This document shows positions 6,690 to 26,914 of a stretch of 33,882 nt of DNA, in pieces. Under the pieces are notes generated by a model that saw nothing but the letters and a program-made list of their open reading frames with translations, did no database searches and was not told the DNA's origin. The stretch covers positions 1 through 33,882 of the forward strand of contig PLLW01000083.1 in assembly GCA_003141435.1 (NCBI GenBank). The letters run 5' to 3'. Within the stretch, counting starts at the first letter, position 1; the number at the start of each line of letters is the position of its first letter. The DNA comes from Ignavibacteriales bacterium. Its GTDB lineage: Bacteria > Bacteroidota > Ignavibacteria > Ignavibacteriales > Ignavibacteriaceae. The position numbers and the translations under genes were made by a program.

Positions 6690-6710
6690 AGTAATAGTTA
6701 AATGCCTAAT

Positions 6711-6966: not shown

Positions 6967-7008
6967 AGCTAAAATATAGTTTTGAAATAAATAGTCTATG
7001 GAGTCCCA

Positions 7009-9330: not shown

Positions 9331-9346
9331 TCTATAGATGTCCTTT

Positions 9347-9629: not shown

Positions 9630-9638
9630 AGTAATAGT

Positions 9639-10490: not shown

Positions 10491-10515
10491 ATTTCTTCCT
10501 TCTGGATTGTTTGTG

Positions 10516-10920: not shown

Positions 10921-11113
10921 TCCCGCTCTCCTTTACAATTAAAAATGTATAATGAAAATCCTTCATAATAGTATCCCAGTCTTCCCCCAATGCTTCCGCA
11001 TCGCTCTTTGAAGGTACTGTTTCTCCATCCATAATACCTGCAAAATCCAATATCCTGCCCATTCCCTCTATAAAGGGCGACTCCCTCAGGGAAGTAAAAA
11101 ACTTCTTGCGCAT
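10895..11113 (-). CDS. Small hypothetical protein upstream of DUF2335
   Basis: Protein of 72 aa with a basic N-terminus (MRKKFFTS), then RESPFIEGMGRILDFAG and an acidic, Trp-containing second half. It is cytoplasmic with no membrane segment. A strong Shine-Dalgarno (CAGGAGG) lies 5 nt before the ATG at 11113. Its stop lies inside the DUF2335 gene, so the two are probably translationally coupled. I see no known domain. First gene of the - strand operon, downstream of the large inverted repeat at 11148-11230. Confidence 0.65.
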   Translation of the reverse strand: MRKKFFTSLRESPFIEGMGRILDFAGIMDGETVPSKSDAEALGEDWDTIMKDFHYTFLIVKESGNDGKENEQ

Positions 11114-11147
11114 AATGCCTCCTGAATAAATTATTTAACGTCCTAAC

Positions 11148-11230
11148 ATGATTAGGTGGAAAAAACCGAAAATGACGAAAAAAATATTTTAAATATTTTT
11201 CGACATTTTTTAAAAAATCCACCTAATCAT
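11148..11230. repeat. Large near-perfect inverted repeat / hairpin
   Basis: Perfect 13-bp arms ATGATTAGGTGGA (11148-11160) and TCCACCTAATCAT (11218-11230). Inside, AAAATGACGAAAAA and TTTTTCGACATTTT pair with one mismatch around an AT-rich centre, so almost the whole 83 nt can fold back on itself. It lies 35 nt upstream of the 72-aa gene (- strand). It could be an operator, a transposon/MITE remnant, or a processing or origin structure. Confidence 0.75.
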
Positions 11231-11488
11231 AGTAAAGGTCAGTCGATGGTATTGCTCGGGTTGTTGTTAACGAAGGATGAGCGGCTCAGATGCGGATGAG
11301 TTCCAAAACCAATAATTCAGCATAAACTTTAGTCAATAAATATTTGGTTATCAAAAATAAAATAATTTAAAATAAAAAGTCAAATAAAAAATATAAAATC
11401 ATAAAAAATAATTTCCTGCATGCGCAGCAGGATTAAAAAATAAATGGTTAACCATAATAAATCACTAAACAAAAAGGAGTACCAATAA
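11231..11488. other. AT-rich intergenic region between divergent operons
   Basis: No gene is seen. It holds a short inverted repeat CCTGC-ATGCGCA-GCAGG (11415-11431) and a perfect 12-bp palindrome ATGGTTAACCAT (11444-11455), 33 nt before the next start codon and plausible as an operator for the + strand gene. AAAAAGGAG just before 11489 is its ribosome binding site. No confident -35/-10 pair was found. Confidence 0.5.
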
Positions 11489-12172
11489 ATGGCACGCTTA
11501 TTAACTCAGATCCTCGGTGTAATGTCCGGCTCCGTCGGCGATATCGTTTTCCATCGTAGAGGTGGTAAAAGCTATGTATCCGCCAAACCAAGCGGTTATA
11601 CGCCAAGGCTCGATGCAGCATCCGTTGCACGTAAAAAACAGTTCAAGACTGCTGTAGAAATAGCCAAGAACATAAATGATCTACCTATTCTAAAAGCAGT
11701 CTGGCCTGTCGATTCCACAAAACAGCTGTCCAAATTCCAAAAAATGGTCAGTGTTAACTATAAACTCGTAAGCGGAGAGGACCTTACAGGTCAGCCTACT
11801 CTTACACCTGATTTCGGCTTTGAAATGACAACCCCTGCAGTTGCTCTTACCGCCGACTCAGTCACTTTCTCAGCCGGTCAGCTTGGTGTTAATCTCGGCA
11901 TCAATACCTCTATCGAAAAGTTCTATTCCGTAGCTGGTATTCTGGTAATGAAAAATCCCACCGATTTGTTATCAAAAGACATCACCGTCATCAAATTAAT
12001 AACAAATCAAGCTAACCTCGATCTCATAACCGATATCAGTGTTACCATACCACTGTCTGGTATCGATCAGCAGTTCCTTGCAAAATACACAGTTAAAAGA
12101 GCATTCCTTGCTTTCTTAACACTTGACGACAATGGTAACGTTGTCAAACATTCTGCAACCTACGGTTCCTAA
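11489..12172 (+). CDS. DUF6266-like conserved hypothetical protein
   Basis: Protein of 227 aa. Its N-terminus (QILGVMSGSVGDIVFHRRGG, then KSYVSAKPSGYTPR, then ARKKQF) follows the pattern of a Bacteroidota family in which a Gly/Ser-rich 'SGxVGxxV' start is followed by 'GKxYxRxxP' and a basic 'RxxF' helix (DUF6266-like). The rest is beta-rich with no catalytic motif. No signal peptide. AAGGAG lies about 10 nt upstream and a strong intrinsic terminator follows, so it is probably its own transcription unit. The function is unknown; a virion or surface structural role is possible but not shown. Confidence 0.65.
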   Translation: MARLLTQILGVMSGSVGDIVFHRRGGKSYVSAKPSGYTPRLDAASVARKKQFKTAVEIAKNINDLPILKAVWPVDSTKQLSKFQKMVSVNYKLVSGEDLTGQPTLTPDFGFEMTTPAVALTADSVTFSAGQLGVNLGINTSIEKFYSVAGILVMKNPTDLLSKDITVIKLITNQANLDLITDISVTIPLSGIDQQFLAKYTVKRAFLAFLTLDDNGNVVKHSATYGS

Positions 12173-12180
12173 TCCCACCG

Positions 12181-12214
12181 ATAGTCCCTGCCCTCGCAGG
12201 GACTATTCTTTAAA
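12181..12214 (+). terminator. Rho-independent terminator
   Basis: Stem ATAGTCCCTGC (12181-12191), loop CCTC, complementary arm GCAGGGACTAT (12196-12206), followed by a short T-rich stretch TCTTT. The 11-bp GC-containing stem lies 8 nt after the stop of the DUF6266-like gene. Confidence 0.85.
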
Positions 12215-12223
12215 GGTTTCACT

Positions 12224-12763
12224 ATGGCTGAAAATAAATATGACTCTTTGTTTGTGAGATATGGAAATGAATTTCATATCGATCCTTTGCTTTTAAAAGC
12301 GCAAGTAAAACAGGAGAGTAACTTTAATCCCAACGCATTTAATAAAATTTCGGGCGCCAAGGGATTGGCGCAGTTTATGGACAAGACGTGGGAAGAATGG
12401 TGCGATATTACTCCTGGTATTCAAAGGGAAGTAAATAAATATGATCCCTTTAACCCAGCCCAGGCAATACATGCACAATCAGCGTATATGCATTTCCTTG
12501 TCAAACTAATCGATCAAAAACTCGCCCAAACCCTAACCGATAAAGATTACCTCTATCACTGGGCATTAGCCGCATACAACTGGGGGATAGGCAACATCCT
12601 AAAAATGCTGTCATTCTCGCGAAGGCGGGAATCTCATGACCAATATTATAACTATGAATTTGCTGAAAAATATCTTCCTAAAGAAACCGCAAACTATGTT
12701 CAGAAGATAATGAAATACTATTGCGAATATCAGCAAGAGGAATACGAAAATGCAAAAAAATAA
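12224..12763 (+). CDS. Lytic transglycosylase (SLT domain)
   Basis: Soluble lytic transglycosylase domain that cleaves peptidoglycan glycan strands. Seen: the catalytic Glu in VKQESNFNP (about residues 27-36), GAKGLAQFMDKTW (about 44-56), and HWALAAYNWGIGN (about 108-120), the three canonical SLT blocks. At 179 aa it is a minimal SLT domain with no signal peptide or membrane segment, as in phage endolysins. Between AYNWG and the C-terminal helix is SFSRRRES, encoded by a palindromic element (12610-12640) inserted in frame. AAAGG precedes the ATG. The next gene overlaps by 14 nt, suggesting a lysis-like pair or a conjugation/secretion role. Confidence 0.88.
   Translation: MAENKYDSLFVRYGNEFHIDPLLLKAQVKQESNFNPNAFNKISGAKGLAQFMDKTWEEWCDITPGIQREVNKYDPFNPAQAIHAQSAYMHFLVKLIDQKLAQTLTDKDYLYHWALAAYNWGIGNILKMLSFSRRRESHDQYYNYEFAEKYLPKETANYVQKIMKYYCEYQQEEYENAKK
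12610..12640. repeat. In-frame palindromic element 1
   Basis: GTCAT...ATGAC ends enclose the stem ATTCTCGC / GCGGGAAT (one G-T pair) around GAAG. It is a member of the GTCATTCCCGCGAA-type palindromes and lies inside the transglycosylase gene, adding about ten residues (SFSRRRESHD) to a loop after the conserved AYNWG block without breaking the frame. Confidence 0.85.
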
Positions 12764-13304
12764 TATACTTTGGTGGGCAATGGTAATTGCATTACTATTA
12801 GTCGGCTTCGTAACCGGTTGGTATTGTCATTCCCGTTCCTTTTTTAGTCATCCTCGCGAAAGCGGGGATCCCATAACTTTACACGACACTATAAAGTCCT
12901 ATTCAGTCCAATACAAAATTATCCCTGGCACTCAATACAACATCGATTCCCTGATAACCACCATAAACCAATACTGGAAAGATTCCTTAAAAAACATGTA
13001 CGGCAAAGGCTTATTCGAATCTAAGTTCTCAAAATCCGATGACCTCGGTTCTCGAACCTACACCCTTGCCAGCCGAATTCCCCTGGATCCCGAATCCCAA
13101 TTGACAGTCGACGAATCCTTTGTCTTTCCTAAAAAAACAATTGCTCTTGTCGGAAGCCTAGGTTATTCAGCTTCATTCGGATTAAAGTATTACATCCTTG
13201 ATACAAAACACTTTTCCTTTTCTGGTCTATTATCCGGTGATTATTTGTTAGATAAAAAGTTCTGGATTCCTAATGCTCGGTTAGAATTAGAATATAAGTA
13301 TTAA
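12750..13304 (+). CDS. Membrane-anchored hypothetical protein
   Basis: Protein of 184 aa with a short basic N-terminus and one membrane segment (about residues 6-24, LWWAMVIALLLVGFVTGWY), then an extracytoplasmic region rich in Tyr, Ser and beta strands ending NARLELEYKY. The residues just after the membrane segment (CHSRSFFSHPRESGDP) come from palindromic elements inserted in frame. I do not recognise the family. The overlap with the transglycosylase gene and the membrane-anchor layout resemble an Rz-like spanin or a porin-like beta protein; neither is proven. The next gene starts 17 nt later. Confidence 0.65.
   Translation: MQKNNILWWAMVIALLLVGFVTGWYCHSRSFFSHPRESGDPITLHDTIKSYSVQYKIIPGTQYNIDSLITTINQYWKDSLKNMYGKGLFESKFSKSDDLGSRTYTLASRIPLDPESQLTVDESFVFPKKTIALVGSLGYSASFGLKYYILDTKHFSFSGLLSGDYLLDKKFWIPNARLELEYKY
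12826..12877. repeat. In-frame palindromic element 2 (partial + full copy)
   Basis: A partial copy GTCATTCCCG (12826-12835) is followed by a full copy at 12847-12877 (stem ATCCTCGC / GCGGGGAT with one G-T pair around GAAA, then CCCATAAC). It is translated as CHSRSFFSHPRESGDP inside the membrane-anchored protein. Confidence 0.8.
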
Positions 13305-13321
13305 TAATAAAGGTTATAAAT

Positions 13322-14287
13322 ATGGCAGTATATAGGCAAATACAAACAACATATTGGCAGGACGAATTCGTTTTGAATTTAACGCCTGAAGAAAAATATT
13401 TTTACCTCTTTCTACTTACTAACAGTAAAACAAAACAATGTGGAATCTATCAATTGCCTGTGCAAGTTATAGTTTTCGAAACCGGCTACAACCAGGAGAC
13501 GGTGGAAAAACTTCTCAAACGTTTCATTGACTATGGTAAAATAATCTACAGCCTCAAAACCAGGGAAATAGGCATAATTAATTGGCCAAAATATAACCCT
13601 ATGGAATCCCCCAAAACAAAAGCCTGTGTCACCAAAGAGCTAAAAGAAGTAAAAGATAAAACCCTTATCGACAGAATATACCCCATACAAGGGGTATCGC
13701 AAAAAGAACAAGAAGAAGAAAAAGAAAAAGAAAAAACAGCAGCAGAAGAAAAAGAGCCCCCTTCGGCACCTGCTGCTGCTCCTTCTTCCTTTCTTCCAGA
13801 CCAAACCCCCGGTCATTCCCGCGAAACATCTTGTCATTCCTTCGAAAAATCTTGTCATTCCCGCGAAGGCGGGAATCTCATAACCACTGTCGATGAAAAA
13901 GATGACTACGATTACAATTGCCAAAGCATAAATGATCAATCCATTATGCTTTTTACCCGGCTATGGAACAAACCCAACACAAATCCTGAAGAATATCGTC
14001 TTGTTTCAGAATATATAACGGTATATGGATTTAAGGAAGTCGAATTCGCCTTCCGGGAAGCGGTAAAAAATAACATTAAAAAACTTGCATATGTGGAAGC
14101 TATTTGCAAAAGACGCAAAGAAAAAATAGTAATCGAAAAATCAAAAGAAGAAGCCCATCAAAAGAAACTTGAGCAGGATAAACTCCTCTTATCCCAGCGT
14201 GAAGCCTGGTCAAAACTAAACCTCTTCGAACTTGCCTGTTCCAAAACCCCTGACAAATTATCGGTTCAAGAAATAGGCTCAGGTTAA
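13322..14287 (+). CDS. DnaD/phage replication-like protein
   Basis: Protein of 321 aa. The N-terminus (about 1-95) looks like a winged-helix domain: YRQIQTTYWQDEFVLNLTPE, then TKQCGIYQLPVQVIVFETGY, then a helix with LLKRFIDYGKI and IINWPKYN, the layout of phage replisome organisers and DnaD-like initiators. A Glu/Lys-rich and Ala/Pro-rich low-complexity linker follows (about 120-160), then palindrome-encoded repeats (GHSRETSCHSFEKSCHSREG). A C-terminal helical domain (about 205-265, LFTRLWNK through YVEAICKRRKEK) resembles the DnaD C-terminal region. Likely a replication protein of a former phage or plasmid; it may also regulate transcription. 17 nt after the previous gene. Confidence 0.65.
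   Translation: MAVYRQIQTTYWQDEFVLNLTPEEKYFYLFLLTNSKTKQCGIYQLPVQVIVFETGYNQETVEKLLKRFIDYGKIIYSLKTREIGIINWPKYNPMESPKTKACVTKELKEVKDKTLIDRIYPIQGVSQKEQEEEKEKEKTAAEEKEPPSAPAAAPSSFLPDQTPGHSRETSCHSFEKSCHSREGGNLITTVDEKDDYDYNCQSINDQSIMLFTRLWNKPNTNPEEYRLVSEYITVYGFKEVEFAFREAVKNNIKKLAYVEAICKRRKEKIVIEKSKEEAHQKKLEQDKLLLSQREAWSKLNLFELACSKTPDKLSVQEIGSG
13812..13884. repeat. In-frame palindromic element 3, tandem 21-nt array
   Basis: Three GTCATTCC starts at 13812, 13833 and 13854 are spaced exactly 21 nt apart; the last is a full palindrome (ATTCCCGC-GAAG-GCGGGAAT). The 21-nt period keeps the frame and gives three 7-residue repeats (CHSxExx). It lies in the linker of the DnaD-like protein. Confidence 0.85.
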
Positions 14288-14590
14288 ATTATTCCAATTG
14301 TTAATGGAATTATTGAATTCAATTTATTAAGTTAAATTGTAATTTATGCCAATCATTGTATATGGATAAGAAAGACTCTGAAGATGATGATAAAATTGCA
14401 CTCTTTCATAAATCCTTTCCTTGTGGGGGTGTTGAGTCATAGGTTAAAACAATAACAGTTATAATTATTTAAAGATTTTTAGTTTACTTTGATCTAGAAC
14501 GAAATTAATGGACATAGGTAAAATTCGCAAAAGAATAGAAAAACAATTTAGAAATTCACGCAAAAACAAAATCGCTTAAAGGTAGAAGAA
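14288..14590. other. Intergenic region before dynamin operon
   Basis: No convincing gene. A weak stem ATTCCA/TGGAAT (14291-14310) could end the upstream unit. Two tiny open frames exist, 14362-14442 (26 aa, acidic then FPCGG) and 14508-14579 (23 aa, very basic), neither with clear support. A TATAAT box at 14460-14465 could be a -10 for the GTPase operon, but no matching -35 is seen at 16-18 nt. Confidence 0.4.
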
Positions 14591-16465
14591 ATGGGAAAAT
14601 TAGAACAATTTGATCTTCTTAGATCAAAAGCGGTTGCGTTACTAAATGAACTTGCGGACCAGTGTTTAGAAAATGATAATATAACATCCCTCAAAGAAGG
14701 TGTTAATGATGCTGTCACTAAAATTAAGTCTGACAAATTCTTAGTTGCTGTAGTTGGTGTCATTAAGCGAGGTAAGTCCACTCTCTTAAATGCTTTATTG
14801 AAAGCTGATGTTGAAATACTTTCTACACAGGTAACTCCAGAAACAGCCCGACTAGCGTTCTTGTATTATGATGATAAACCCCATGCAATCATATACACTA
14901 AGGACAGCAAACAAATTAACATTGATATTGGTGAGTTATCTGAATATACATCCGCCTATAATACGGTAAGTCCCAAAGGGAAAAAAGCCAAAGTTGAAAA
15001 CACTCTTTATGCTGAGATATTCTATCCGAATGGTATACTCCAAAAAGGATTCTGCATTATTGATACTCCCGGAGTAGAGGACCCAGATCAGGAACGATCT
15101 GATGTTACGCTTAATTTTATTGATCAAGCAGATGCAGTAATATTTTTAATTGATCCTACCGAGGGAGGGCTTAAAGAGAGTGAATTAAAATTTATTAAAA
15201 ACAAAATTTTGACTAACAATGGGACAGAAAAAGGAATTATTTTTGTTGCTAATAAAGTTGGAGCCTTAAGAATTCATCAATTTCCAGAACTTCCAAAATT
15301 ACTGGCCAATAAAAAGGAGGACATAAAGAAAATATTTAATATAGATGTAAAGTTTTATCCAATTGATTCATATTACGAGGTTTGCAGAATTAGAGAAGGG
15401 CACAATAGTAGTCAAGAGAATGATAGGACCTACATTCAGAATATAAATCAAAAATTAGTTAAACTTAATTTGCCACCAGATTATTTTAAAGATTTGTTTG
15501 AGGAATTTAAAAATGACCTTGAATTATATCTGGTAAAAGAAAAAGGCAAATTGTTTTTGAAACGACGGATAAGTACTTTTTTAACTGAACAGTTGAATCC
15601 ATTGATTGATGAATTAAAAGAAAAAAGCAGCTATGAGCCCAAATCTATCGTTGATCTTGAAATAAAAATAAAAGATGCAGAAAAGCAGCTCGAAATTCTA
15701 AAAAGAAAATCGGAACAAATTCTTGACAAATTTAATAACAATAAAAATTCTTTACATACATATATTCAGCAGAAAACTACAACCGAATTTAATAATAACA
15801 TTACAATAAACCCTGGAACCATAGATCACTTGTCGGCGGATACTGTTGAGATAACAAAAAACTTATCAAAGCAGATATCAAAAAAAACACAAAATTTCAT
15901 TAATGAACTTATAGATGTGCTCGAAGAGGAAAATATTAAAATAGAAAGACCAAATTTTGATATCCGGGTGAAAAGTATAGATACCGCAAAATATTTTACA
16001 AAAAAGCAGGAAGTTGTTCAAGGGAACAATGACGGTGATTTTATTGGGGCTGCAATAGGTGGTTTTTTGGGCTTTATTGTGGGCGGTCCTTTGGGGGCTG
16101 CTTCAGGAGCCGCTGCCGGGAGACGGGTCGGTAAAGGATTCAATTCAGATAATAAAATGATTGAGAATGTTACATTTGATGAAATTGGACTAAGAAAAGA
16201 AATAGATAATACCCGACAAATGCTTATACATAATTACCAAGCCTCATTGGACTATTATTACAATTCAGTCGAAGAAACGGTGGATAAAATACTTAACACA
16301 AAAAAGAAGAGCATTACAGATTACTATTCAGCACAGAAAAAAAATCTAAAAAATGAAAAATTTAGCTTCTCACAGTACAGGGATGAAATTAATTCAATTG
16401 TTGATAAACTGAATAAAAATAACAATTTATTTACTCAACTGCTCAATGAGGTAGAAACACTATGA
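14591..16465 (+). CDS. Dynamin-like GTPase 1
   Basis: Large GTPase of the bacterial dynamin-like superfamily, 624 aa. Seen: a helical lead (1-48), P-loop GVIKRGKS (56-63), a conserved Thr region (TQVTPETAR), switch II DTPG (159-162), and NKVG at 222-225 where a canonical NKxD Asp is replaced by Gly. Long coiled-coil-prone helices follow (about 300-475). A glycine-zipper hydrophobic segment at about 480-513 (DFIGAAIGGFLGFIVGG, then AASGAAAG) could insert in or cross a membrane, and a final helical stalk completes it. The arrangement matches two-gene dynamin systems such as LeoA/LeoBC. Its stop overlaps the next GTPase by 4 nt, suggesting equimolar hetero-oligomers at the membrane. Confidence 0.85.
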   Translation: MGKLEQFDLLRSKAVALLNELADQCLENDNITSLKEGVNDAVTKIKSDKFLVAVVGVIKRGKSTLLNALLKADVEILSTQVTPETARLAFLYYDDKPHAIIYTKDSKQINIDIGELSEYTSAYNTVSPKGKKAKVENTLYAEIFYPNGILQKGFCIIDTPGVEDPDQERSDVTLNFIDQADAVIFLIDPTEGGLKESELKFIKNKILTNNGTEKGIIFVANKVGALRIHQFPELPKLLANKKEDIKKIFNIDVKFYPIDSYYEVCRIREGHNSSQENDRTYIQNINQKLVKLNLPPDYFKDLFEEFKNDLELYLVKEKGKLFLKRRISTFLTEQLNPLIDELKEKSSYEPKSIVDLEIKIKDAEKQLEILKRKSEQILDKFNNNKNSLHTYIQQKTTTEFNNNITINPGTIDHLSADTVEITKNLSKQISKKTQNFINELIDVLEEENIKIERPNFDIRVKSIDTAKYFTKKQEVVQGNNDGDFIGAAIGGFLGFIVGGPLGAASGAAAGRRVGKGFNSDNKMIENVTFDEIGLRKEIDNTRQMLIHNYQASLDYYYNSVEETVDKILNTKKKSITDYYSAQKKNLKNEKFSFSQYRDEINSIVDKLNKNNNLFTQLLNEVETL

Positions 16466-18210
16466 ACATTCTCGACATTCGTAAAGAGTTATCCATAAAA
16501 ACCAACAAACTTGAGGGTATTACAAAGAATCTGAATCTACAACTAAATAATTATGATTTTCTAACCAGGGTTATGAACAAGACTACATTTGATATTGCAG
16601 TAGTCGGTGAATTCACATCCGGTAAATCGACTTTAATAAATGCTTTGCTTGGAATAGACCTGCTCCCGACTAAACTTGAACCCACTACGGCTAGAATTAC
16701 TTATATCGCTTATTCAGAAAGTCCTGAGATAATATTAATTATGAAGAATGGTGAAAGAAAAACTCATTCTTTTGAGGTATCATTTTTAAAATCCTTAATT
16801 GCCGAGAACAGAAATCTTTTAAGTGAGATTGAATATATAGAAGTGTTTTTAGACAATCCTTTGTTAAAAAACAGTATTCGAATTATTGATACACCCGGGA
16901 CAAACGATACAGATGAGCAAAGGGTAGCCATTACCTATGGACTTTTACCAGAAGCTGATGCTGTAATCTATGTTACTATTCATCCTGTTACTTCATCTAA
17001 TGTACAGGTATTTAAGGAACATATCCTGGGGAATAAAATAAAAAACATTTTTTTCGTATTGAATAAAATTGATCTGCTTGGTGAAAATACCGAATTGGCT
17101 GTAAAAGATGCTTTAAATTGGTTTAGGGAAAATACAAATGATGAGATAAATTCTTTTTATTCTGTTTCGGCTATTGACTGCCTTGAAGGCACTATAGATG
17201 ACGACAAGGAATTAGTTGATAAAAGTAAATTTAAGATATTTGCTGATGCATTATATAAATTTATAGAAAGTTCGGATAAATATGATAATCTTCAAATTCA
17301 GTACAATGCAGTTTTTCAAAAAATTAAATCACAAATTATAGAGATAATAAGGTTAAAAGCCGGCGGTCTTTCAATTCCTGAGGAGAGTTTTCAACAACGG
17401 AAAAATGATCTGAAAAACGATCTAAAATTATTTAAGGAACAAACCCATGAACTTGAAAATCAGATAGAACAGGAATTTGACTCTCTTATTTATAAAATTG
17501 AAGAATCATTAAATAACTTATTAAATGCATTATTGGAAACAACCAATGAAATAGTTTCGTCCGGGAGGAGTGATGTTAATCTTATGCTAAAAGATCTGGA
17601 GATGGAAATTAAATATAAATATGATGGTTGGCGCAATAATAACGAACCGTTAATTGAAGAATTTCTTAGAACGATACAAGAGGAAATTAGTATCAGGGTC
17701 GCAAAAGCAGTTCAAGATGTGCAATTTGCAGTAACTAAGTTTACCGATATGCGGTTATCAACTCAGATGCACAAACAGAATCAATCTCAGGTAGATACAA
17801 TATTGTCTGATGATTCTAAGTTCGGACTCTCATCAACAGGTGCGGTTGTTACCAGCATGATTGTAATACATTTCGTTGCAGCCGCCTTTGCCCCAATAGC
17901 ATTCTTGCTTTATCCATTATTTAATAATTATCGGAAAAAATGGCAGCAGCACCAAAGGGAACAATTAAAACCACAGATAGTTGCCTCCCTTCATGAAGGG
18001 TTTAGTAGCTTCAGAAAGGAAATCATAAAGAATATCAATTATCAAAAAGATTTAATTGACAAACAAATTGACCAGGCCCTCACCGCTCAAAACGAACAAA
18101 TCAATAAACAAATAGATGAAATTGAAAAAGAAAGACAAGAACAAAAAACCACTATAGAACAAAAAATTAGTGAGTATAACGCAGCTGTAGTGAGTATAGG
18201 AGAAATATAA
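16462..18210 (+). CDS. Dynamin-like GTPase 2
   Basis: Second dynamin-family GTPase, 582 aa. Seen: helical lead, P-loop GEFTSGKS (49-56), TKLEPTTARIT switch I, DTPG (143-146), and a canonical NKID (201-204). A long helical region follows (about 290-440) with Glu/Lys heptads, then a hydrophobic pair at about 455-490 (STGAVVTSMIVIHFVAAAF, then PIAFLLYPLF) like a membrane-binding paddle, and a C-terminal coiled coil (IDKQIDQALTAQNEQINKQI). It overlaps GTPase 1 by 4 nt and ends 1 nt before the J-domain gene. Because its nucleotide-specificity motif is intact while that of GTPase 1 is not, it may be the more conventional GTPase of the pair. Alone, it could be read as a generic dynamin; the tandem context suggests a LeoBC-type partner. 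Confidence 0.87.
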   Translation: MNILDIRKELSIKTNKLEGITKNLNLQLNNYDFLTRVMNKTTFDIAVVGEFTSGKSTLINALLGIDLLPTKLEPTTARITYIAYSESPEIILIMKNGERKTHSFEVSFLKSLIAENRNLLSEIEYIEVFLDNPLLKNSIRIIDTPGTNDTDEQRVAITYGLLPEADAVIYVTIHPVTSSNVQVFKEHILGNKIKNIFFVLNKIDLLGENTELAVKDALNWFRENTNDEINSFYSVSAIDCLEGTIDDDKELVDKSKFKIFADALYKFIESSDKYDNLQIQYNAVFQKIKSQIIEIIRLKAGGLSIPEESFQQRKNDLKNDLKLFKEQTHELENQIEQEFDSLIYKIEESLNNLLNALLETTNEIVSSGRSDVNLMLKDLEMEIKYKYDGWRNNNEPLIEEFLRTIQEEISIRVAKAVQDVQFAVTKFTDMRLSTQMHKQNQSQVDTILSDDSKFGLSSTGAVVTSMIVIHFVAAAFAPIAFLLYPLFNNYRKKWQQHQREQLKPQIVASLHEGFSSFRKEIIKNINYQKDLIDKQIDQALTAQNEQINKQIDEIEKERQEQKTTIEQKISEYNAAVVSIGEI

Positions 18211-18211
18211 A

Positions 18212-19009
18212 ATGGACTCAAAGGATATTATTCTTAACATTTTCGATTCAGCCGATAAAATGCTACTCAATAAACAGCCCCAGAATGCTTTTTTTGAGTA
18301 TGAGCAGGTTTTTCCGCTTCTTTCATCACTTAACCTAAAAGGACGTCGCGCTGATTCACTTGGCAGTTTTGCTGGTTGGACCGCAGGATTTCTTACAGGC
18401 GGGCTTGGTTTAGAAGATTTGATAATTATACCTCTCGTATCCAGAGGAGTTTCTCAGGCACTAGGGAGTAATTCGCAATACATTTATGAAGTACTCTCGA
18501 TGGTTTTATTGCGGCAAATAAATTGTATCCTTGATTCTGAGAGTTTAAGAAAAAATTTAGATAAAGACAGGGTGTTCCAAAAATTCGCATTACTAATTTC
18601 TTCCACAAAGAATAAAACCCTTTTTAAGAAATACTGTAAAAATTTCTTCCCTGATGTCTTTTCTGATAACTCACTTGATAATAGTGATGTGAATTATACT
18701 CCATATTATTTCCTTTTGGAAGAAGCTAATAATATTTCTTATCAAAATTCGGAATTATTCTCTTTGCTCTTTTCATATTTGACTCTAACTAATGATACCT
18801 CGGAATTATTCAGAAAACTTGAAACTAATTTTGGGCGGAAAGATTACCAACAAGACAAAAGAAAAGATAATTCAAAGAACCATCAAACCAATTCTCGGCA
18901 AACTTACAAAGAGAGCCCTAATGATTATTATGAAATTCTCGGAGTGAAAAGAGGAGCGACAAAAGAAGAAATAAAGCAAGCTTATCATGAAAAAATACCA
19001 TCCGGATAA
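18212..19009 (+). CDS. J-domain protein, J domain cut before HPD
   Basis: Protein of 265 aa. The N-terminal 200 residues are helical, with a Gly-rich hydrophobic stretch at about 50-85 (GSFAGWTAGFLTGGLGLEDL, then IIIPLVSRG), and are not a family I recognise. A Lys/Gln/Asn-rich linker follows (about 212-235), then the start of a J domain: NDYYEILGVKRGATKEEIKQ, AYHEK. The frame then ends IPSG-stop, just before the HPD motif, which is present in another frame as MKKYHPDKF (18987 onward). J domains stimulate Hsp70 (DnaK) ATPase and need HPD, so this product alone should not be active. Part of the dynamin operon: 1 nt after GTPase 2. Confidence 0.75.
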   Translation: MDSKDIILNIFDSADKMLLNKQPQNAFFEYEQVFPLLSSLNLKGRRADSLGSFAGWTAGFLTGGLGLEDLIIIPLVSRGVSQALGSNSQYIYEVLSMVLLRQINCILDSESLRKNLDKDRVFQKFALLISSTKNKTLFKKYCKNFFPDVFSDNSLDNSDVNYTPYYFLLEEANNISYQNSELFSLLFSYLTLTNDTSELFRKLETNFGRKDYQQDKRKDNSKNHQTNSRQTYKESPNDYYEILGVKRGATKEEIKQAYHEKIPSG

Positions 19010-19100
19010 ATTCGCTCACCTTTCAAAAGAATTTCAAGATTTAGCGAATAGAAAAGCACAACTTATTAACGAAGCTTATAATTATTTAAATAACGTTTAA
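18987..19100 (+). pseudogene. J-domain C-terminal half in shifted frame
   Basis: A 37-codon frame beginning ATG (18987) inside the previous gene, reading MKKYHPDKFAHLSKEF and ending KAQLINEAYNYLNNV. It contains the HPD motif and helices III-IV of the J domain that is started upstream. A canonical J domain has about six residues between AY and YHPDK; here the upstream frame supplies HEK and this frame MKK, so about 8 nt appear lost between short ATGAAA-like repeats. It is either a disabling deletion, a base-calling error near the A6 run (18990-18995), or a coupled two-piece J domain. 2 nt before the next gene. Confidence 0.7.
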
Positions 19101-19102
19101 TT

Positions 19103-21172
19103 ATGTCAAAAGAGATATTGCTATTAGGAGAATTCAGTACCGGTAAGTCAGCATTTATAAATATGCTTTTGGGGGTATCCATATTACCTGAGAAACTTGA
19201 GTCCACCGACATGCCGGTAATAAAAATTCATGGTGGTAGTCCAGCTGGTTTATGGTTAAGAGAGCCTGAGCAGAAGAATCCAAAAGCTTTGGACAATTTT
19301 TCTGATATACCCAAAGATTGGACTTTGTTTGAATATGCTGAAATTACTATTCCAACACATCCATTATTAAAAGAAGGACTCATATTTTGGGATACTCCAG
19401 GAAGAAATTCTACTAACCCCCATCATCAAAAGCATCTTGAAAATTTTCTTAGTAAGAAAAAGAAATTCCGCTATGTATACTATTTTGTTCACGGAACTAT
19501 AACCGAACCAAGTATTGAGTTTCTAAAAAAATACAGAAATTATTGGGATAATTTAGTAATTCTGGTGAATATAAAAGAAGAAAGACTGGAAGATGAATGC
19601 AGGCTGATGGAGAAAGAAGTTAAAAAAACAGTCAGAGTTCATTTGGGAAATATTCCTGTTGAACTGCTTTATATTGGCGATATGTGCGGGGAGTTTAATA
19701 CTCTGTCAGATCAAATGAAAGCTAACTTATCAGATTGGGAATTGCTAAAAGACTGGGATAAAAGAAGGATAGATTTTAAGAATCTTAAAGAAAAATATAG
19801 ATCGACAATAATTGGGGAAGAAAATATAGAGGTTATAGAACTACTTGGCCAAGAATCAGAGGTAGGATTTTCCCCTGAAGATATCGAATCAGTTATTAAA
19901 GCGGCAGAGTCTGGAAATGCTGAAGCTCAGTATTTGCTTGGGAATGCTTATCAGAAGGGTCAGGGGGTTAAGAAGGATTATAAATTAGCTGTTGAATGGT
20001 ACAATAAGTCAGCCGAGTTAGGAAATGCAAATGCTCAATATGAATTAGGTGATATGTACATAAACGGATTAGGAGTAATAGGAATTAAGCAAGATTATAA
20101 AAGAGCATTAGAATGGTTGACAAAATCAGCGGATCAAGGTAACGCAGAATCTCAACTTGCATTGGGAGTTATGTACCATTCTGGATTGGGAATAAAGCAA
20201 GATTATAAAAAAGCATTAGAGTGGTTTACAGAAGCAGCCGAGCAAGGTAACTCAGATGCTCAATCAGCATTGGGCATGATGTACGAGGATGGGTTAGGAG
20301 TAAGACAGGATTATAAATTAGCTGTTGAGTGGTACACAAAATCAGCCGAACAAGATAATTCAAGTGCTCAATTCTCGTTGGGCTTTATTTACGAAGAAGG
20401 AACAGGAGTAAAGCAAGATTATAAAAAAGCATTAGACTGGTTTACTAAATCTGCCGAAAAAAACGATGCGGCAGCTCAACATTCATTGGGGGCAATGTAC
20501 TATTATGGAGAAGGAGTAAGGCACGATTATAAAAAAGCATTAGAGTGGTTCTCAAAATCAGCCGAACAAGGTGATCCAAATGGCCAATATGGATTAGGGT
20601 TATTGTACGCTAATGGGGAAGGGATAAAACAGGATGACCTGAAAGCGATAGAGTGGTTTACCAAATCAGCCAAGCAAGGTAATTCAAATGCTCCATTACA
20701 ATTAGGGTTTATTTATTGGAATAAAGAAAGTCCACAGAATGATTATCGAAAAGCATTTGAGTGGTTATCTAATCCAGCCGAACAAGGTAACGCAGAAGCT
20801 CAATATGTATTGGGAAATTTGTACGATTATGGGTTAGGAGTTAAGAAGGATTACCAAAAAGCAATAGAATGGTACACTAAATCGGCCGAACAAGGTAATG
20901 CAGATGCCGAATATGCAATGGGGTTTATGTACCGTCTTGGGGAAGGAACACAGAAAGATAATCGGATAGCATTCGAGTGGATAAATAAATCTGCACAGCA
21001 TGAAAATGCAGAAGCCCAAGCTTTGATAGGTTTGTGTTATCAAAAAGGTGTTGGGGTTTCTATCAATGCAAATAAGGCGTTGTATTGGTATGAAAAAGCA
21101 GCGGCTCAAGGAAATGAAGACGCAGTAAAGTTATTAAGTGAGTTCAACAAGCAGCATGAATTAAAAAGGTAA
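19103..21172 (+). CDS. GTPase-Sel1 repeat fusion protein A
   Basis: Protein of 689 aa. Its P-loop lies at the extreme N-terminus (GEFSTGKS, 9-16), followed by ESTDMPVI, switch II WDTPG (96-100) and NIKE at 156-159 where NKxD is expected, so guanine specificity is uncertain. The NTPase region runs to about 250. From about 268 to the end are eleven 36-residue Sel1-like repeats (pattern NAEAQYxLGxxYxxGxGVKQDYKKALEWFTKSAEQG) plus a final half repeat; one repeat has a 3-residue insertion (VIG). Sel1 repeats form a superhelical protein-binding scaffold. No signal peptide, so cytoplasmic. The gene starts 2 nt after the split J domain and is followed by a paralogue. Function inferred as sensor or adaptor for the dynamin pair. 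Confidence 0.85.
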   Translation: MSKEILLLGEFSTGKSAFINMLLGVSILPEKLESTDMPVIKIHGGSPAGLWLREPEQKNPKALDNFSDIPKDWTLFEYAEITIPTHPLLKEGLIFWDTPGRNSTNPHHQKHLENFLSKKKKFRYVYYFVHGTITEPSIEFLKKYRNYWDNLVILVNIKEERLEDECRLMEKEVKKTVRVHLGNIPVELLYIGDMCGEFNTLSDQMKANLSDWELLKDWDKRRIDFKNLKEKYRSTIIGEENIEVIELLGQESEVGFSPEDIESVIKAAESGNAEAQYLLGNAYQKGQGVKKDYKLAVEWYNKSAELGNANAQYELGDMYINGLGVIGIKQDYKRALEWLTKSADQGNAESQLALGVMYHSGLGIKQDYKKALEWFTEAAEQGNSDAQSALGMMYEDGLGVRQDYKLAVEWYTKSAEQDNSSAQFSLGFIYEEGTGVKQDYKKALDWFTKSAEKNDAAAQHSLGAMYYYGEGVRHDYKKALEWFSKSAEQGDPNGQYGLGLLYANGEGIKQDDLKAIEWFTKSAKQGNSNAPLQLGFIYWNKESPQNDYRKAFEWLSNPAEQGNAEAQYVLGNLYDYGLGVKKDYQKAIEWYTKSAEQGNADAEYAMGFMYRLGEGTQKDNRIAFEWINKSAQHENAEAQALIGLCYQKGVGVSINANKALYWYEKAAAQGNEDAVKLLSEFNKQHELKR

Positions 21173-21214
21173 AGAAATATTTCACATTATTTACCTAATA
21201 AAAAAATATAATAA

Positions 21215-21250
21215 TTTAACAAAGCCTATAACGAACTAAGGTATATTTAA
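21215..21250 (+). pseudogene. Vestigial J-domain tail before second fusion gene
   Basis: In frame, FNKAYNELRYI-stop matches the J-domain end INEAYNYLNNV-stop that precedes the first fusion gene, and the DNA TTAACAAAGCCTATAA matches TTAACGAAGCTTATAA. An in-frame stop lies just upstream, so only about 11 codons survive. It ends 3 nt before the next ATG, as the first tail ends 2 nt before its ATG. It shows that the duplicated unit included the J-gene end. Confidence 0.6.
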
Positions 21251-21253
21251 ACT

Positions 21254-23926
21254 ATGTCAAAAGAAATATTACTTTTAGGTGAATTCAGCACAGGTAAGTC
21301 AGCATTTATAAACATGATTCTCGGTGTATCCATATTACCTGAAAGACTTGAATCGACCGATATGCCAATAATAAAAATTCATGGTGGAAGTCCTGCCGGT
21401 GTTTGGTTAAGAGAGCCAAATCAAAAGAATTTAAGAGGATTGGATAAGTTTTCTGAAATACCTAAAGATTGGACTTTGTTTGAATATGCTGAAATTACTA
21501 TTCCAACACATCCGCTATTAAAAGAAGGACTAATATTCTGGGATACACCAGGAATAAATTCTACTAATCCACAACATCAAAAGCATCTTGAAAATTATTT
21601 ACAAAATAACCATCGGAATTTTGCCATAATATATTACTTCCTCCACAGTAATGTAACTGCTACAAGTATAAATTTTCTAAAGAAATTAACTAAATATTTC
21701 AACAAACTAAATATTTTAATAAATATTAAAGAGGTTAAACCGGAGTTAGAGTGCCGGTTAATTGAAAAAGAAGTTAAAAAAGAGATTAAAACTCAAATAA
21801 GCAATATTCCAATTGATCTTCTTTATGTGGGGGATATTAATGAAGAATTTAACACGCTATCTGAAGATCGACGAAAAAACCTAACTGAATGGGAGCTTAT
21901 TAAGGATTGGGATAAAAGAAAAATTGATATTTCAGGATTAAGGAATAGATATAAAAACAACTTGATCGGTGATGAAATATTGGACGTCATAACCGAAATT
22001 GCTAATAAAAAAAATGTTGATGAAAATTATTATTATAAATTAGATATCGAAAATTTAAAAGTGTTAGCTGATAGTGGCGACCCTAAGGCTCAATATGTGT
22101 TATCAATAAGATATTCTTTAGTAGAGGGTTATTTCAATATAGCATTTGATTATCTCAAGTTAGCCGCGAACAATGGATCCGGTGAAGCTCAATATGATCT
22201 GTCTACACATTATAAAACTGGTTTAATATGTGAAACTAATAATGAGCTTTATATACAATATCTCCAGATGGCTGTTATAAATAATGAACCTGAAGCAATT
22301 GCAGAACAATATTTTGAAGGAATAAATACATTAAAAAACCCCGAGGTTGGATTTTCAATATTAAAAAATGCAGTTGATAATGGAAATTACTCTATATATT
22401 CTAGCCTTGCAGAATGCTATAAGGAGGGCAAAGGTATTGAAAAAGATTTAATAAAAGCTGAATATCATTATCGAAGTAGCGTGGAATTTGAAAATCAAAT
22501 ATTTCCAATCTCTTTAATAAGTTTTCTTTTAGAGCACCCAGATAAAATTAAGTTAAATGAAGGTGTAGATTTATTGTTAAAATATTCAAGAGAAAATTTC
22601 TTTTTTGCTAAGTTACTTCTAGCCCTATATTACCGCGATAATCCGGATAATAATAATGTGAATAAAGTCTTTAGCTTATTGTCGCCATTTGAAGGAAGAA
22701 ATTATTGGGCAGATTTTATATTAGCGAACTGTTATGGAGAAGGACAGGGAGTTGCAAAAAACGAAAACAAAAAATTTCAACTATTAAAAAATATTTATGA
22801 TGAAGGTTTCACAATTGGTATAAACGCTTTAGCAGAATGTTACAGTCAAGGCTGCGGCATTAAGAAAAACGATCAAGAGGCTATTCGGCTTTATAAAATA
22901 TCATCAGAAAAAGGGAACTTAGATGCCAAGTATATATTAGCAAGCAAGTTGACAAATTATGAAGGTAGCTTTGAAGAGGGCATGCGTCTTTATAAGGAAC
23001 TGGCAGATTTAAATATTCCAAATGCTCTAATCGATCTTGGAGTTATATTATCGGAATCTAACCCAAAAGAGGCGTTAAAATATTTGTTAAGAGTAGCTGA
23101 CTCAAATAATTCCACAGTCCACTATTTACTCGGTAAGATATATTTAGAAGATGATGAATTAGACACTAATAAACAAAAAGCGTTTGGTCTTCTAACAAAA
23201 GCGGCAAATCAAGGAGTAAGTGATGCTCAACATATGCTAGGACTGTGTTTCTTAAATGGTTGGGGTATAAAAAAAAATCAAGATAAAGCATTTGAATGGA
23301 TTAAAAAAGCAACCGAACAAGATCTCGTAATAGCGCAATGTAGTATGGGTTATTTATATTTGAAAGGTATAGGGACTAAAGAAAATTTATCTGAGTGTAT
23401 CAAATGGTATAAAAAAGCCTCCGAACAAGGTCATCATATTGCTCAGTATTACCTTGCGACATTTTACTTAAACGGAGATGTAGTAAATAAAAATGAGCAA
23501 GAAGCTTTTAGACTTTTCAAACTTAGCGCCGAGCAAGATGATTATGACGCTCAAAACATGTTGGGAAGGTTCTATTCTGAAGGTTGGGGCGTATATAAAG
23601 ATGATAAAGCAGCATTTAAATATTTTGAGTCGGCTGCTGATCACGGAAATATGATTGCACAATTTAATTTAGCCGAAAGATACTTTAATGGCACGGGATG
23701 CTCAAAGGATTTAACTTTAGCATTTAAATATTTTATGGCTTCCGCTGAGCAAGGATATTCTGACTCACAGTATTGCTTGGGATATATTTATGAAAATGGA
23801 TTAGGAGTTATTTCTGATGTCAATCAAGCATGGTTTTGGTATGAAAAAGCCGCAGATCAAGGAAACGAGAATGCTATAAATGCAATAAACGAATTAAACC
23901 GTCAAATTAATGGAGTTAGGAGGTAG
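21254..23926 (+). CDS. GTPase-Sel1 repeat fusion protein B
   Basis: Paralogue of the preceding gene, 890 aa. The N-terminal 115 or so residues are nearly identical (P-loop GEFSTGKS 9-16, ESTDMPII, WDTPG 96-100), again with NIKE instead of NKxD. Similarity falls after about residue 118. The C-terminal two thirds (about 265-890) are degenerate Sel1-like repeats, clearest toward the end (for example SDAQHMLGLCFLNGWGIKKN and HIAQYYLATFYLNGD); the middle repeats are strongly diverged and variable in length. This suggests conserved nucleotide-binding machinery with a diversified recognition scaffold. Cytoplasmic. It ends 2 nt before a strong-SD small gene. Confidence 0.85.
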   Translation: MSKEILLLGEFSTGKSAFINMILGVSILPERLESTDMPIIKIHGGSPAGVWLREPNQKNLRGLDKFSEIPKDWTLFEYAEITIPTHPLLKEGLIFWDTPGINSTNPQHQKHLENYLQNNHRNFAIIYYFLHSNVTATSINFLKKLTKYFNKLNILINIKEVKPELECRLIEKEVKKEIKTQISNIPIDLLYVGDINEEFNTLSEDRRKNLTEWELIKDWDKRKIDISGLRNRYKNNLIGDEILDVITEIANKKNVDENYYYKLDIENLKVLADSGDPKAQYVLSIRYSLVEGYFNIAFDYLKLAANNGSGEAQYDLSTHYKTGLICETNNELYIQYLQMAVINNEPEAIAEQYFEGINTLKNPEVGFSILKNAVDNGNYSIYSSLAECYKEGKGIEKDLIKAEYHYRSSVEFENQIFPISLISFLLEHPDKIKLNEGVDLLLKYSRENFFFAKLLLALYYRDNPDNNNVNKVFSLLSPFEGRNYWADFILANCYGEGQGVAKNENKKFQLLKNIYDEGFTIGINALAECYSQGCGIKKNDQEAIRLYKISSEKGNLDAKYILASKLTNYEGSFEEGMRLYKELADLNIPNALIDLGVILSESNPKEALKYLLRVADSNNSTVHYLLGKIYLEDDELDTNKQKAFGLLTKAANQGVSDAQHMLGLCFLNGWGIKKNQDKAFEWIKKATEQDLVIAQCSMGYLYLKGIGTKENLSECIKWYKKASEQGHHIAQYYLATFYLNGDVVNKNEQEAFRLFKLSAEQDDYDAQNMLGRFYSEGWGVYKDDKAAFKYFESAADHGNMIAQFNLAERYFNGTGCSKDLTLAFKYFMASAEQGYSDSQYCLGYIYENGLGVISDVNQAWFWYEKAADQGNENAINAINELNRQINGVRR

Positions 23927-23928
23927 CT

Positions 23929-24111
23929 ATGCCTTTTTTATTTATTATCATTATTGTTGTAGGGATCATTTGGTTCTTTGCTTCACTTGATAGTGACAGC
24001 AGTAGCAATTCAACACAAGATAAAAGTTACACATGTGGAGAATGTGAAAATCCATTAGAAGGTAATGAGGTTTATTGTCCGAAATGTAAGAAAAAAATTA
24101 ATTGGGGTTAA
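23929..24111 (+). CDS. Small membrane protein with zinc ribbon
   Basis: A 60-aa protein: one N-terminal membrane helix (about residues 2-19, FLFIIIIVVGIIWFFASL), a Ser/Asp/Asn linker, then a C-terminal zinc ribbon with CGEC (about 37-40) and CPKC (about 52-55). A strong Shine-Dalgarno (TAGGAGG) lies just before the ATG, within the end of the upstream gene, so it belongs to the same operon. It may anchor or tether the GTPase-Sel1 proteins at the membrane; this is inference from position. Confidence 0.75.
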   Translation: MPFLFIIIIVVGIIWFFASLDSDSSSNSTQDKSYTCGECENPLEGNEVYCPKCKKKINWG

Positions 24112-24151
24112 AACATTTTTATTGTCTTTTATAATTATAAAGGAGTTATTT

Positions 24152-24505
24152 ATGTCAGATGTGTTTCACGATTTTCAATTCAATCCACATTTTGACCATG
24201 ATGGTCATTTGAGTGGGTATACTCAAAAAGATATGTTTGGAGACAAACACTACTTTGGCAACGAAGGTCATTCCACCGGACATGCGGTGAAAGATCCTTT
24301 TACACATCACAGTGACTATTATGATTCCAACAACAAACATATAGGCCATAATATAAAAGATATTAACGGGCATGATTTTTTGAAATCAGACGGAAGTCTC
24401 GGGCATACGCCAAAAATGTTCGAATTAAAAGATCCCAATTTTCATAATGATGTACATAATCATTTTTCTTCTTATAGAGCACATTTATTAGGGAAAATTG
24501 GATAA
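24152..24505 (+). CDS. His/Gly-rich repeat protein
   Basis: A 117-aa soluble protein with four degenerate repeats of about 20 residues of the form xxxFxxxGHxxGHxxKDxF (for example GNEGHSTGHAVKDPF and NNKHIGHNIKDING). It is unusually rich in His, Gly and Asp, so metal binding is possible. No signal peptide. The start chosen is the ATG at 24152, which has AAAGGAG 9 nt upstream; an upstream extension to 24065 would overlap the zinc-ribbon gene in another frame and lacks support. I do not recognise the family. 40 nt after the zinc-ribbon gene, so probably in the same transcript. Confidence 0.7.
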   Translation: MSDVFHDFQFNPHFDHDGHLSGYTQKDMFGDKHYFGNEGHSTGHAVKDPFTHHSDYYDSNNKHIGHNIKDINGHDFLKSDGSLGHTPKMFELKDPNFHNDVHNHFSSYRAHLLGKIG

Positions 24506-24670
24506 TTATTTGAAGGAAAACTAAGCAATAGACATTTGCATTATTACCCTAATTTATTGAATAGGGAATAAAGAATAAGGATAATTTAATTAATGGAAAA
24601 ATATTAAATAATAGTGATAAATTGAATCAGATATTATCTGTTATCTTACCTTAACTAATTAATAGAGTCT

Positions 24671-25570
24671 ATGATTTGTAGATATATTAAAATATGGTGG
24701 CAAAAAAGAAATATGGTAACTAAAAAAATAATCAATTCTAAAAAAGTCTATATAACTGAAAAACATCACCACAATTTAATACCTTGGGCTCAGTTAAGAC
24801 AGGGGATTAAGAATAATGAATTATTAGTTCTAAGTTTAGATCATCATACCGATATTTACGTACCATTCCAACGTTTTGCAAAAGATAGCCAAGGTAACTA
24901 TGATCCCCAGATAGCAATAGTGGAAATCAATAAAATGGATTTTAATAATATTAAAACTATAGAGAATGCTATACCTAATCTAAGAAATGATGAACATATT
25001 GAAACAGCATTGAGAGCAGACATTATTTATAAGTTTTTTATTATTGCTTATAAATATCAGAATGATCAACCATTATCAAATGAACAAACAAAATATACAG
25101 CGGCTTTCTCCCCACAATTGGGGAATTTCAATACTTCGATTCCAATACCAATTAGACCTTATACATATCCAGATGCTGATATTTATATCCCGGAAAATAA
25201 CTGTTTTGTCGGTTGTCCAGGTCCACATGTTGATAGATGTGTAATTCCACACTTTAATCAATGCATAGAATCAATATTTCTAAACGATCAATTAGACATT
25301 ATGGGACAGATGAGTCCGTCGCTAATTAAGAACGGTAAATTTTCAAACAAATACATTCTGGATATAGATCTCGACTATTTTCACACAACGCAAAGTATTC
25401 ATCCTAAAAACACAGATACATTTTATAGGTTAATTAAAAACGCAGAAATTATAACTATTACCAAAGAGGCTGACTTTATAGCTATGTGGCGCGAGGAACA
25501 TGATAGTTCGCTAAATGTTAATGACCTAGTTGCCGAAATATTAATACATATTAAAAATGCCACAACCTAA
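24671..25570 (+). CDS. UPF0489 family protein
   Basis: Protein of 299 aa (285 if started at the ATG at 24713). Features of UPF0489 (C5orf22-like), whose fold is related to arginase/deacetylase: an early HHH (KHHHNLIPW), VLSLDHHTDIYVPF, and ILDIDLDYFHTTQS, giving clustered Asp/His residues suited to a two-metal site. Also GCPGPHVDRC and a final Leu-rich segment. No signal peptide or membrane segment. The biochemical role of the family is not known to me. It lies 165 nt after the repeat protein with no evident Shine-Dalgarno, so it may be transcribed separately. Whether it is part of the dynamin system is unclear. Confidence 0.7.
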   Translation: MICRYIKIWWQKRNMVTKKIINSKKVYITEKHHHNLIPWAQLRQGIKNNELLVLSLDHHTDIYVPFQRFAKDSQGNYDPQIAIVEINKMDFNNIKTIENAIPNLRNDEHIETALRADIIYKFFIIAYKYQNDQPLSNEQTKYTAAFSPQLGNFNTSIPIPIRPYTYPDADIYIPENNCFVGCPGPHVDRCVIPHFNQCIESIFLNDQLDIMGQMSPSLIKNGKFSNKYILDIDLDYFHTTQSIHPKNTDTFYRLIKNAEIITITKEADFIAMWREEHDSSLNVNDLVAEILIHIKNATT

Positions 25571-25758
25571 TTGGTGCTAAAGAACTGATGGTAGATACCC
25601 TATTCAAAATGGAAATCTCATTGACAGAAATAATTCTTGGGTTATGGCAAATCTATTCCCTGGGAAAAATTCAATAAGAATATAACTCAGGATATTAACA
25701 AAATTATAGACCTCTAAAATTAGACTTGATTGATTTCCAATAGACTTCTTCCTGTCCT
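25571..25758. other. Gene-free decayed DNA
   Basis: All frames are interrupted. A short frame with WVMANLFPGKN is visible but matches nothing I know. Probably remnant coding DNA next to the HsdM fragment. Confidence 0.4.
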
Positions 25759-25885
25759 GAAGAATCCCTCGAAAAAAAACTCTGGTAAACTGCCGATAAA
25801 CTCCGCAAAAATATGGACGCCGCAGAGTACAAGCACTTAGTAAACAAGCCTAACTCTTTGTCGACTATATAGTAAGTAAATGATT
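25759..25885 (+). pseudogene. HsdM (type I DNA methyltransferase) N-terminal remnant
   Basis: Reads EESLEKKLW-stop-TADKLRKNMDAAEYKHLV, the characteristic N-terminal signature of type I modification subunit HsdM, with a TAA at 25786-25788 after the Trp. After about 25842 a frame change gives LFVDYIVS, resembling the expected LIFLKYIS. No methylase motifs follow; the fragment runs into the border repeat. It is a dead fragment of a restriction-modification system. Confidence 0.65.
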
Positions 25886-25890
25886 ATCGT

Positions 25891-26266
25891 TATTATTTGG
25901 TTCGTATTAAACTGAATTAAATATTTTGCATCATATAAAATCAGCGGAATGGAATATCCTTATTTGGTTTTGGCTTGGTTCTTATATTGTATTAGTTTGG
26001 CTCGTATTTACGACCTTAAATAAAATGCGTAAAGAAAATTTATGTAATGGAGTAAATAGCGGGAAATGCTGTTTGTTCTTATTTGGCTCATATTTAACGG
26101 CATCAAATAATTTGCGTTTAGAAAATTTATGTAGCGTAACGTTAAGCGAAGAATTCTGTTTGAGCCGCAGGCGAGTTAATTCTTCGCAGTGGAGCGTAAT
26201 AAATTTTTAGCGGAATTATTTGTAGCCGTGTTTCTTTTGGTACTTTTCTTGCGACAAGAAAAGTAC
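25891..26266 (+). repeat. Structured dispersed repeat, copy 3 (right island border)
   Basis: Same family and orientation as the copies at 6711 and 9347. It is composite: a truncated unit ending GCGGGAAATGCTGTTTG (about 26059-26075) runs directly into a complete one. Complete core: outer stem 26122-26130 AAAATTTAT with 26199-26207 ATAAATTTT; inner stem 26146-26155 GCGAAGAATT with 26178-26187 AATTCTTCGC (perfect); apical GCC-GCA-GGC (26164-26172). Terminal hairpin GTACTTTTCTTG-CGA-CAAGAAAAGTAC (26240-26266). It lies 12 nt before the stop of the - strand ThiF gene and could terminate transcription from both sides. Confidence 0.85.
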
Positions 26267-26278
26267 AGAGTAATATTA

Positions 26279-26914
26279 TTAATAAATCTTACTTATTAAA
26301 TCAACCGCCATATTTGCCTGGTGCCCTGCGGCAATGATAACGCGGGGAGCCATAAGTCCGTTCTTTTCATTCCCCTCATTCTTGTTGTCTCCGCAGATAA
26401 ATATGTTTTTGCTTAACTTATTCGTCTTAATCAGGTTTGAAGACGAATATCCCGCTAATCCTGATGCTGTAATCAGAAACTTATTCTTGAATCTTTTGTC
26501 GCCGAAGGCTTCTACTATCATCGCCTTCTCAGAAACTTTATCAAAGGCTTCAATTATTATTGGACAATCTTTGTAAATATTAAAAATGTTCTTAAGTGAA
26601 AGTTTGAGAACGTGCTTTTCCACTGTAATAAATGGGTTTACTTTGTTTATAAATGACGCAAGTGCATCAGTCTTATTCTTCCCTATATCTGATATAAAAA
26701 ATTGCTGGCGGTTAAGATTGGATGGTTCAACTTTATCAAAGTCAGTTATAACTAATTTCTTTACCCCTATTCTGGCTAATGCTATTGCGGCATTTGATCC
26801 TAATCCTCCGCATCCTGCTATTCCTACAACTGCCTGCTTGATTTTCTCTTTTATATCAGCAGAATTCCTTGCTGTAATCTGATCATAAAAGGAGGAATCA
26901 ATTTTATTCACCAA
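26279..26914 (-). CDS. ThiF/MoeB-like E1 adenylyltransferase
   Basis: Protein of 211 aa that probably adenylates the C-terminal Gly of the ThiS/MoaD-like carrier encoded just upstream. Seen: the Rossmann loop GIAGCGGLGSNAAIAL (about 32-47), ITDFDKVEPSNLNRQQFF with the Asp and Arg used for ATP (about 56-73), and a C-terminal Gly-rich region. It lacks the CxxC zinc motifs and the long C-terminus of MoeB, and I see no clear catalytic Cys, as in short ThiF homologues of anaerobes. It abuts the carrier gene (next base). In this locus it may serve thiamine synthesis, but a role in molybdenum cofactor sulfuration/selenation is an attractive alternative. Confidence 0.8.
   Translation of the reverse strand: MVNKIDSSFYDQITARNSADIKEKIKQAVVGIAGCGGLGSNAAIALARIGVKKLVITDFDKVEPSNLNRQQFFISDIGKNKTDALASFINKVNPFITVEKHVLKLSLKNIFNIYKDCPIIIEAFDKVSEKAMIVEAFGDKRFKNKFLITASGLAGYSSSNLIKTNKLSKNIFICGDNKNEGNEKNGLMAPRVIIAAGHQANMAVDLISKIY

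Follow-up and report, generated by a model that had tools for sequence, protein, structure and literature searches.

The question raised by this locus is why a J-domain gene in an operon of dynamin-like GTPases appears in two pieces, with its J domain interrupted immediately ahead of the HPD motif. The pieces could be the remains of a single gene, the halves of a protein that is made in two parts, or the product of an error in the sequence. Our analysis of the window, by which we mean the whole stretch of 33,882 nucleotides, favors the first of these. We put the probability at about three in four that 18212-19100 is one ancestral gene, the co-chaperone gene of an operon with a dynamin pair, and that it lost 8 nt by slippage and with them, recently, its function. 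The split has the look of a recent mutation of an ordinary kind rather than that of a new two-piece protein. The parts of the gene are the following:

18212-19009, plus strand: truncated J-protein frame (P0001), with a helical N-terminal domain, J helix I, half of helix II and then IPSG and a stop, where the orthologues continue in frame
18987-19100, plus strand: second half of the J domain (P0002), with HPD and helices III-IV, in frame +1 relative to 18212
18980-18995, plus strand: lesion site, where the AY-to-YHPD interval is 8 nt shorter than in the orthologues, at a direct repeat of period 8

An earlier note on this DNA, made from the letters alone, had described a J domain split right before HPD, with one frame ending in AYHEK-IPSG-stop and the other beginning at ATG 18987, and both frames were confirmed. 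P0001 has a region of about 230 residues ahead of the J domain and ends in ...KEEIKQAYHEKIPSG at a TAA stop (19007-19009) that falls within J-domain helix II. The frame from ATG 18987 reads MKKYHPDKFAHLSKEFQDLANRKAQLINEAYNYLNNV to its stop and carries MKKYHPDK, which holds the HPD motif; it ends at 19100, 2 nt before the start of the GTPase gene. P0001 matches positions 1-24 of the Pfam DnaJ model and P0002 positions 26-55, so the two are complementary pieces of a J domain. The three orthologues described below have a contiguous J domain (PF00226) in which HPD separates helices II and III; the window does not. A search for an RNA element at the junction gave no Rfam match within the window.

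Orthologues were sought in 80 genomes of the family, in 391 genomes of the class drawn from a larger group and in 395 genomes drawn from the phylum. In those searches close orthologues of the J protein were found in only three other genomes, all of the same family: G034, G091 and G074. The G091 contig appears to be that of the Ignavibacterium sp. SKYG120 record, since their coordinates agree. The identity of the J protein to its orthologue is 63% for G034 and 49% for SKYG120. The earlier note had suggested comparing the gene with its orthologues, and in each of these operons (3/3) it is a single open frame that contains the N-terminal domain and the entire J domain, with HPD in an unbroken frame. 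The note's estimate that about 8 nt are missing proved to be exact, as the spacer from AY (or VY) to YHPD is 10 nt in the window and 18 nt in all three orthologues. The AY-YHPD interval holds six residues in 60 of the 60 intact J-like stretches found by a pattern match in the fetched loci. An indel of 8 nt is not divisible by three, and with intact orthologues on the other side of the comparison this is one mark of a frameshift pseudogene. The 37 residues of the second piece are 81-89% identical to the same segment of the three orthologues (tblastn E 1e-17 to 1e-18), and the piece is therefore not a chance open frame.

The sequence around the lesion suggests how the 8 nt may have been lost. 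The window has one ATGAAAAA unit at this site, and the intact gene of G034 has two head-to-tail 8-nt copies at the same codons, which differ by 1 base (7/8 match). Because the deficit equals the period of this direct repeat, slipped-strand deletion of one period is the simplest cause, and a comparable repeat may be inferred from the relatives for the ancestor of the window. In the sequence of events that we propose, the product of an ancestral gene would have had a helical domain at its N-terminus and a J domain at its C-terminus. Short direct repeats within helix II would then have slipped against each other, which removed 8 nt and put the HPD half out of frame. The resulting product would be a truncated protein without HPD, which should not stimulate DnaK. 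The A6 run that the earlier note had placed beside the break is indeed present, but its value as a marker of the lesion is not borne out: the intact G034 gene has the same A6, so the run by itself neither causes nor marks the lesion.

An 8-nt loss that equals one repeat period could also suggest a contingency locus, in which the J gene is switched reversibly on and off by repeat slippage. At most two units ever existed, however, and one is left; no longer array is found in the orthologues. Slippage is rare in arrays of this length, and they re-expand even more rarely. We give reversible switching almost no credence. The A6 run at the junction and the +1 position of the downstream frame relative to the upstream frame might instead suggest recoding, with +1 ribosomal frameshifting or slippage of RNA polymerase on A6 joining the two frames. 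The joined product would nevertheless be 2-3 residues short in helix II, where the 60 J-like stretches all have six residues, and an A6 that is shared with an intact gene is not a specific signal. Recoding is thus highly improbable as well.

The earlier note had also raised the possibility that coupled reinitiation yields a J domain in two pieces. In this proposal ribosomes terminating at 19009 would step back and begin again at ATG 18987, and a working J domain would form from the truncated protein and the peptide of 37 residues. It has some appeal, since almost no position of the J-domain model is missing between the pieces, the second half is conserved and its stop lies just ahead of the GTPase start. 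The overlap between start and stop is -23 nt, however. According to a 2025 review (PMC12548453), coupling works best when the spacing is -4 to +3 nt, overlap weakens it more sharply than separation does, and one study covered by that review saw none at -25 nt. The 25 nt before ATG 18987 contain no Shine-Dalgarno sequence, in contrast to the ...ggag... ahead of 18212. The junction consequently has neither the spacing nor the ribosome-binding site that would mark a translationally coupled pair. ATG 18987 is, moreover, an inherited internal Met of helix II that aligns with M in G034 and in SKYG120, so that it did not arise as a start codon. None of the three orthologues is split. On these grounds the proposal is not supported, and we regard it as very improbable; it is slightly less probable again that both halves are made and reassemble, with the recruitment of DnaK to the dynamin complex controlled by translation reinitiation.

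The state of the second half bears on the age of the break. Over its 37 codons, comparison with the three orthologues gives pN of 0.06-0.12 and pS of 0.66-0.90. Among the four sequences the window has 3 private residues, 1 of them in the first 34 positions, and each intact copy has 4 or 5. On the assumption that the segment has evolved neutrally after the break, nonsynonymous changes have a 95% upper bound of about 0.06-0.09 per site. For the divergence from G034 the dS per branch is 0.8 or more, a minimum because the value is near saturation. With that dS the break would fall within roughly the last 7-11% of a neutral branch at most, which is a weak test on a short segment. That the second half has hardly decayed means a recent break, continuing selection on the segment, or an error in the sequence. 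Near-perfect conservation of the second half fits continued selection too, which counts against recent inactivation. Of the three options raised in the earlier note, recent inactivation is nevertheless the best supported, with three of three orthologues intact and a second half that has barely decayed.

The remaining option is that the gene is intact in the cell and that one repeat period collapsed in the draft assembly. The genome is a draft of 123 contigs, the second half looks fully functional from its sequence, and collapses do occur at short direct repeats. A tandem repeat of 8 nt is, however, far shorter than a read or the usual k-mer, so its collapse would be unexpected and an unusual assembler fault. 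The other genes of the window that have a comparator all align in one frame, and no second convincing frame break is found among the comparator-covered genes. As a background, we compared this genome with a sister species of the same genus (G001) over the fetched stretches (about 49 kb, 48.7 kb aligned), and 1 of the 42 ORFs with a partner was flagged as frame-broken. The flagged ORF is probably not a true frame break: it looks like an antisense ORF, with a 1-nt gap beyond an apparent gene on the opposite strand. Judged by these alignments the assembly is not generally indel-ridden. We consider a collapsed repeat unlikely, while giving it appreciable weight. The broken allele is known from one genome only.

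A recent inactivation of the J gene raises the matter of what the gene does in its relatives, and here the content of the operon is informative. The other members, all in the same orientation, are as follows:

14591-16465, plus strand: dynamin-like GTPase 1, LeoBC-like, 624 aa (Pfam Dynamin_N E 4.6e-21; PADLOC LeoBC 8.9e-14), with full-length orthologues in loci L167, L034 and L168
16462-18210, plus strand: dynamin-like GTPase 2, LeoA-like, 582 aa (Pfam Dynamin_N 2.9e-26; PADLOC LeoA 9.6e-25), with a 73% identical full-length orthologue in L167
19103-21172, plus strand: GTPase with C-terminal Sel1 repeats, 689 aa (Pfam Dynamin_N 2.1e-12; ten Sel1 stretches)
21254-23926, plus strand: paralogous GTPase with Sel1 repeats, 890 aa (Pfam), 54% identical over its full length to the single GTPase-Sel1 gene of L167
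24065-24505, plus strand: small protein, probable last operon member, with an ORF of 65% identity in the corresponding position of L167 (G034)

The small protein at 24065-24505 has no Pfam, PADLOC or NCBIfam match. The order dynamin 1, dynamin 2, J protein, GTPase is common to the window, G034, SKYG120 and G074. The J protein beside dynamins that the earlier note had remarked on is accordingly a conserved arrangement in four genomes. The GTPase copies vary, with two GTPase-Sel1 paralogues in the window, one in G034 and, in G074, two with other C-termini. The GTPase domains of the tandem paralogues at 19103-21172 and 21254-23926 are 70% identical, and their Sel1 repeat content differs. Two further genomes, G186 and G418, have divergent GTPase relatives; no dynamin or J gene lies in the stretches fetched from them, which makes them uninformative on the lesion. 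A related protein with the N-terminal domain and a J domain is also present in G008 and G010, of the same family (L007:1465-2379 and L009:1294-2325), with no dynamin gene apparent in the approximately 3.7 kb fetched around it. The J-protein family therefore extends beyond the dynamin operon. The N-terminal region is mostly helical in a low-confidence AlphaFold2 model of the SKYG120 orthologue (two sequences, mean pLDDT 55.6). A search of solved structures with the orthologue profile matched the J domain and not the N-terminal domain.

The operon lies within 9318-26270, an interval of about 17 kb between xanthine-dehydrogenase genes and thiF/xdhC. Since these flanking genes are only about 1.5 kb apart in the sister species G001, the dynamin operon is on a species-variable island. 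This location is only suggestive as a hint of a putative role in phage defence. A phage or plasmid origin found no backing, as P0001 has no relatives in viral contigs or plasmids and the GTPase domain has none in plasmids. Copies of a dispersed intergenic repeat occur at 6685-6993, 9348-9650 and 25866-26280, and are found at both ends of the island; across the genome, 49 pieces match the stretch 25957-26275. A short repeat (12601-12642 and 13845-13886, 90% over 42 bases) lies in two predicted island genes, one of them lytic-transglycosylase-like.

The lesion itself is ordinary, and what it points to is a small conserved operon, so far poorly described, of two dynamins, a J protein and GTPases that end in Sel1 repeats or in C-terminal regions of another kind. 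In the relatives an intact J protein would recruit DnaK to the dynamin/GTPase complexes, which could then be remodelled or disassembled. Going by gene linkage alone, the J protein probably brings DnaK to a dynamin/GTPase assembly in those genomes, and an action of DnaK on dynamins is plausible. The host genome (3.08 Mb) has a DnaK gene and, according to a whole-genome DnaJ search, two complete DnaJ-type genes besides this locus. With HPD out of frame, the DnaK step at the dynamins is probably lost in this genome. The GTPase gene, whose start now lies 93 nt from the new stop, may have become uncoupled too. As the J protein is a standing member of the operon, DnaK remodelling of bacterial dynamin assemblies can be tested with the intact relatives, and the window allele would be a natural knock-out of the co-chaperone step.

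A precedent of a general kind is the uncoating of clathrin by auxilin and Hsc70, in which a J protein recruits Hsp70 to a membrane-remodelling assembly. The suggestion of an auxilin-like J protein beside the dynamins seems reasonable as an analogy, and we claim no homology outside the J domain. Literature searches that paired Eleos with LeoA and dynamin, or dynamin with the DnaJ domain and BDLP, gave no hits. A closer likeness is found in Nostoc punctiforme, where the gene beside BDLP1 (UniProt B2IZD2) ties a C-terminal DnaJ-like domain to a paired bacterial dynamin, and DnaK binding or assembly has been suggested (PMC6104087). In B2IZD2 the J domain is fused to the dynamin, whereas the window has a separate J protein with its own helical N-terminal domain. 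Campylobacter Cj-DLP1/DLP2 is likewise a functional pair encoded by neighbouring dynamin genes, but its operon contains a putative HcpA-like beta-lactamase gene and no J protein (PMC6104087). The tandem dynamin-like GTPases recall LeoABC/Eleos (PMC4159319), with PADLOC matches of 1e-24 to LeoA and 9e-14 to LeoBC. On sequence the dynamins appear only remotely akin to Leo/Eleos and membership is not proven, the NCBIfam LeoA subfamily model giving 18.3 bits, far below its cut-off of 325. The LeoABC system also has a split gene, LeoC/LeoB, which was confirmed by resequencing (PMC4159319), but there the split is in a dynamin and not in a J domain. The operon of the window differs from LeoABC, its remote kin, in the additional J protein and the GTPase-Sel1 genes.
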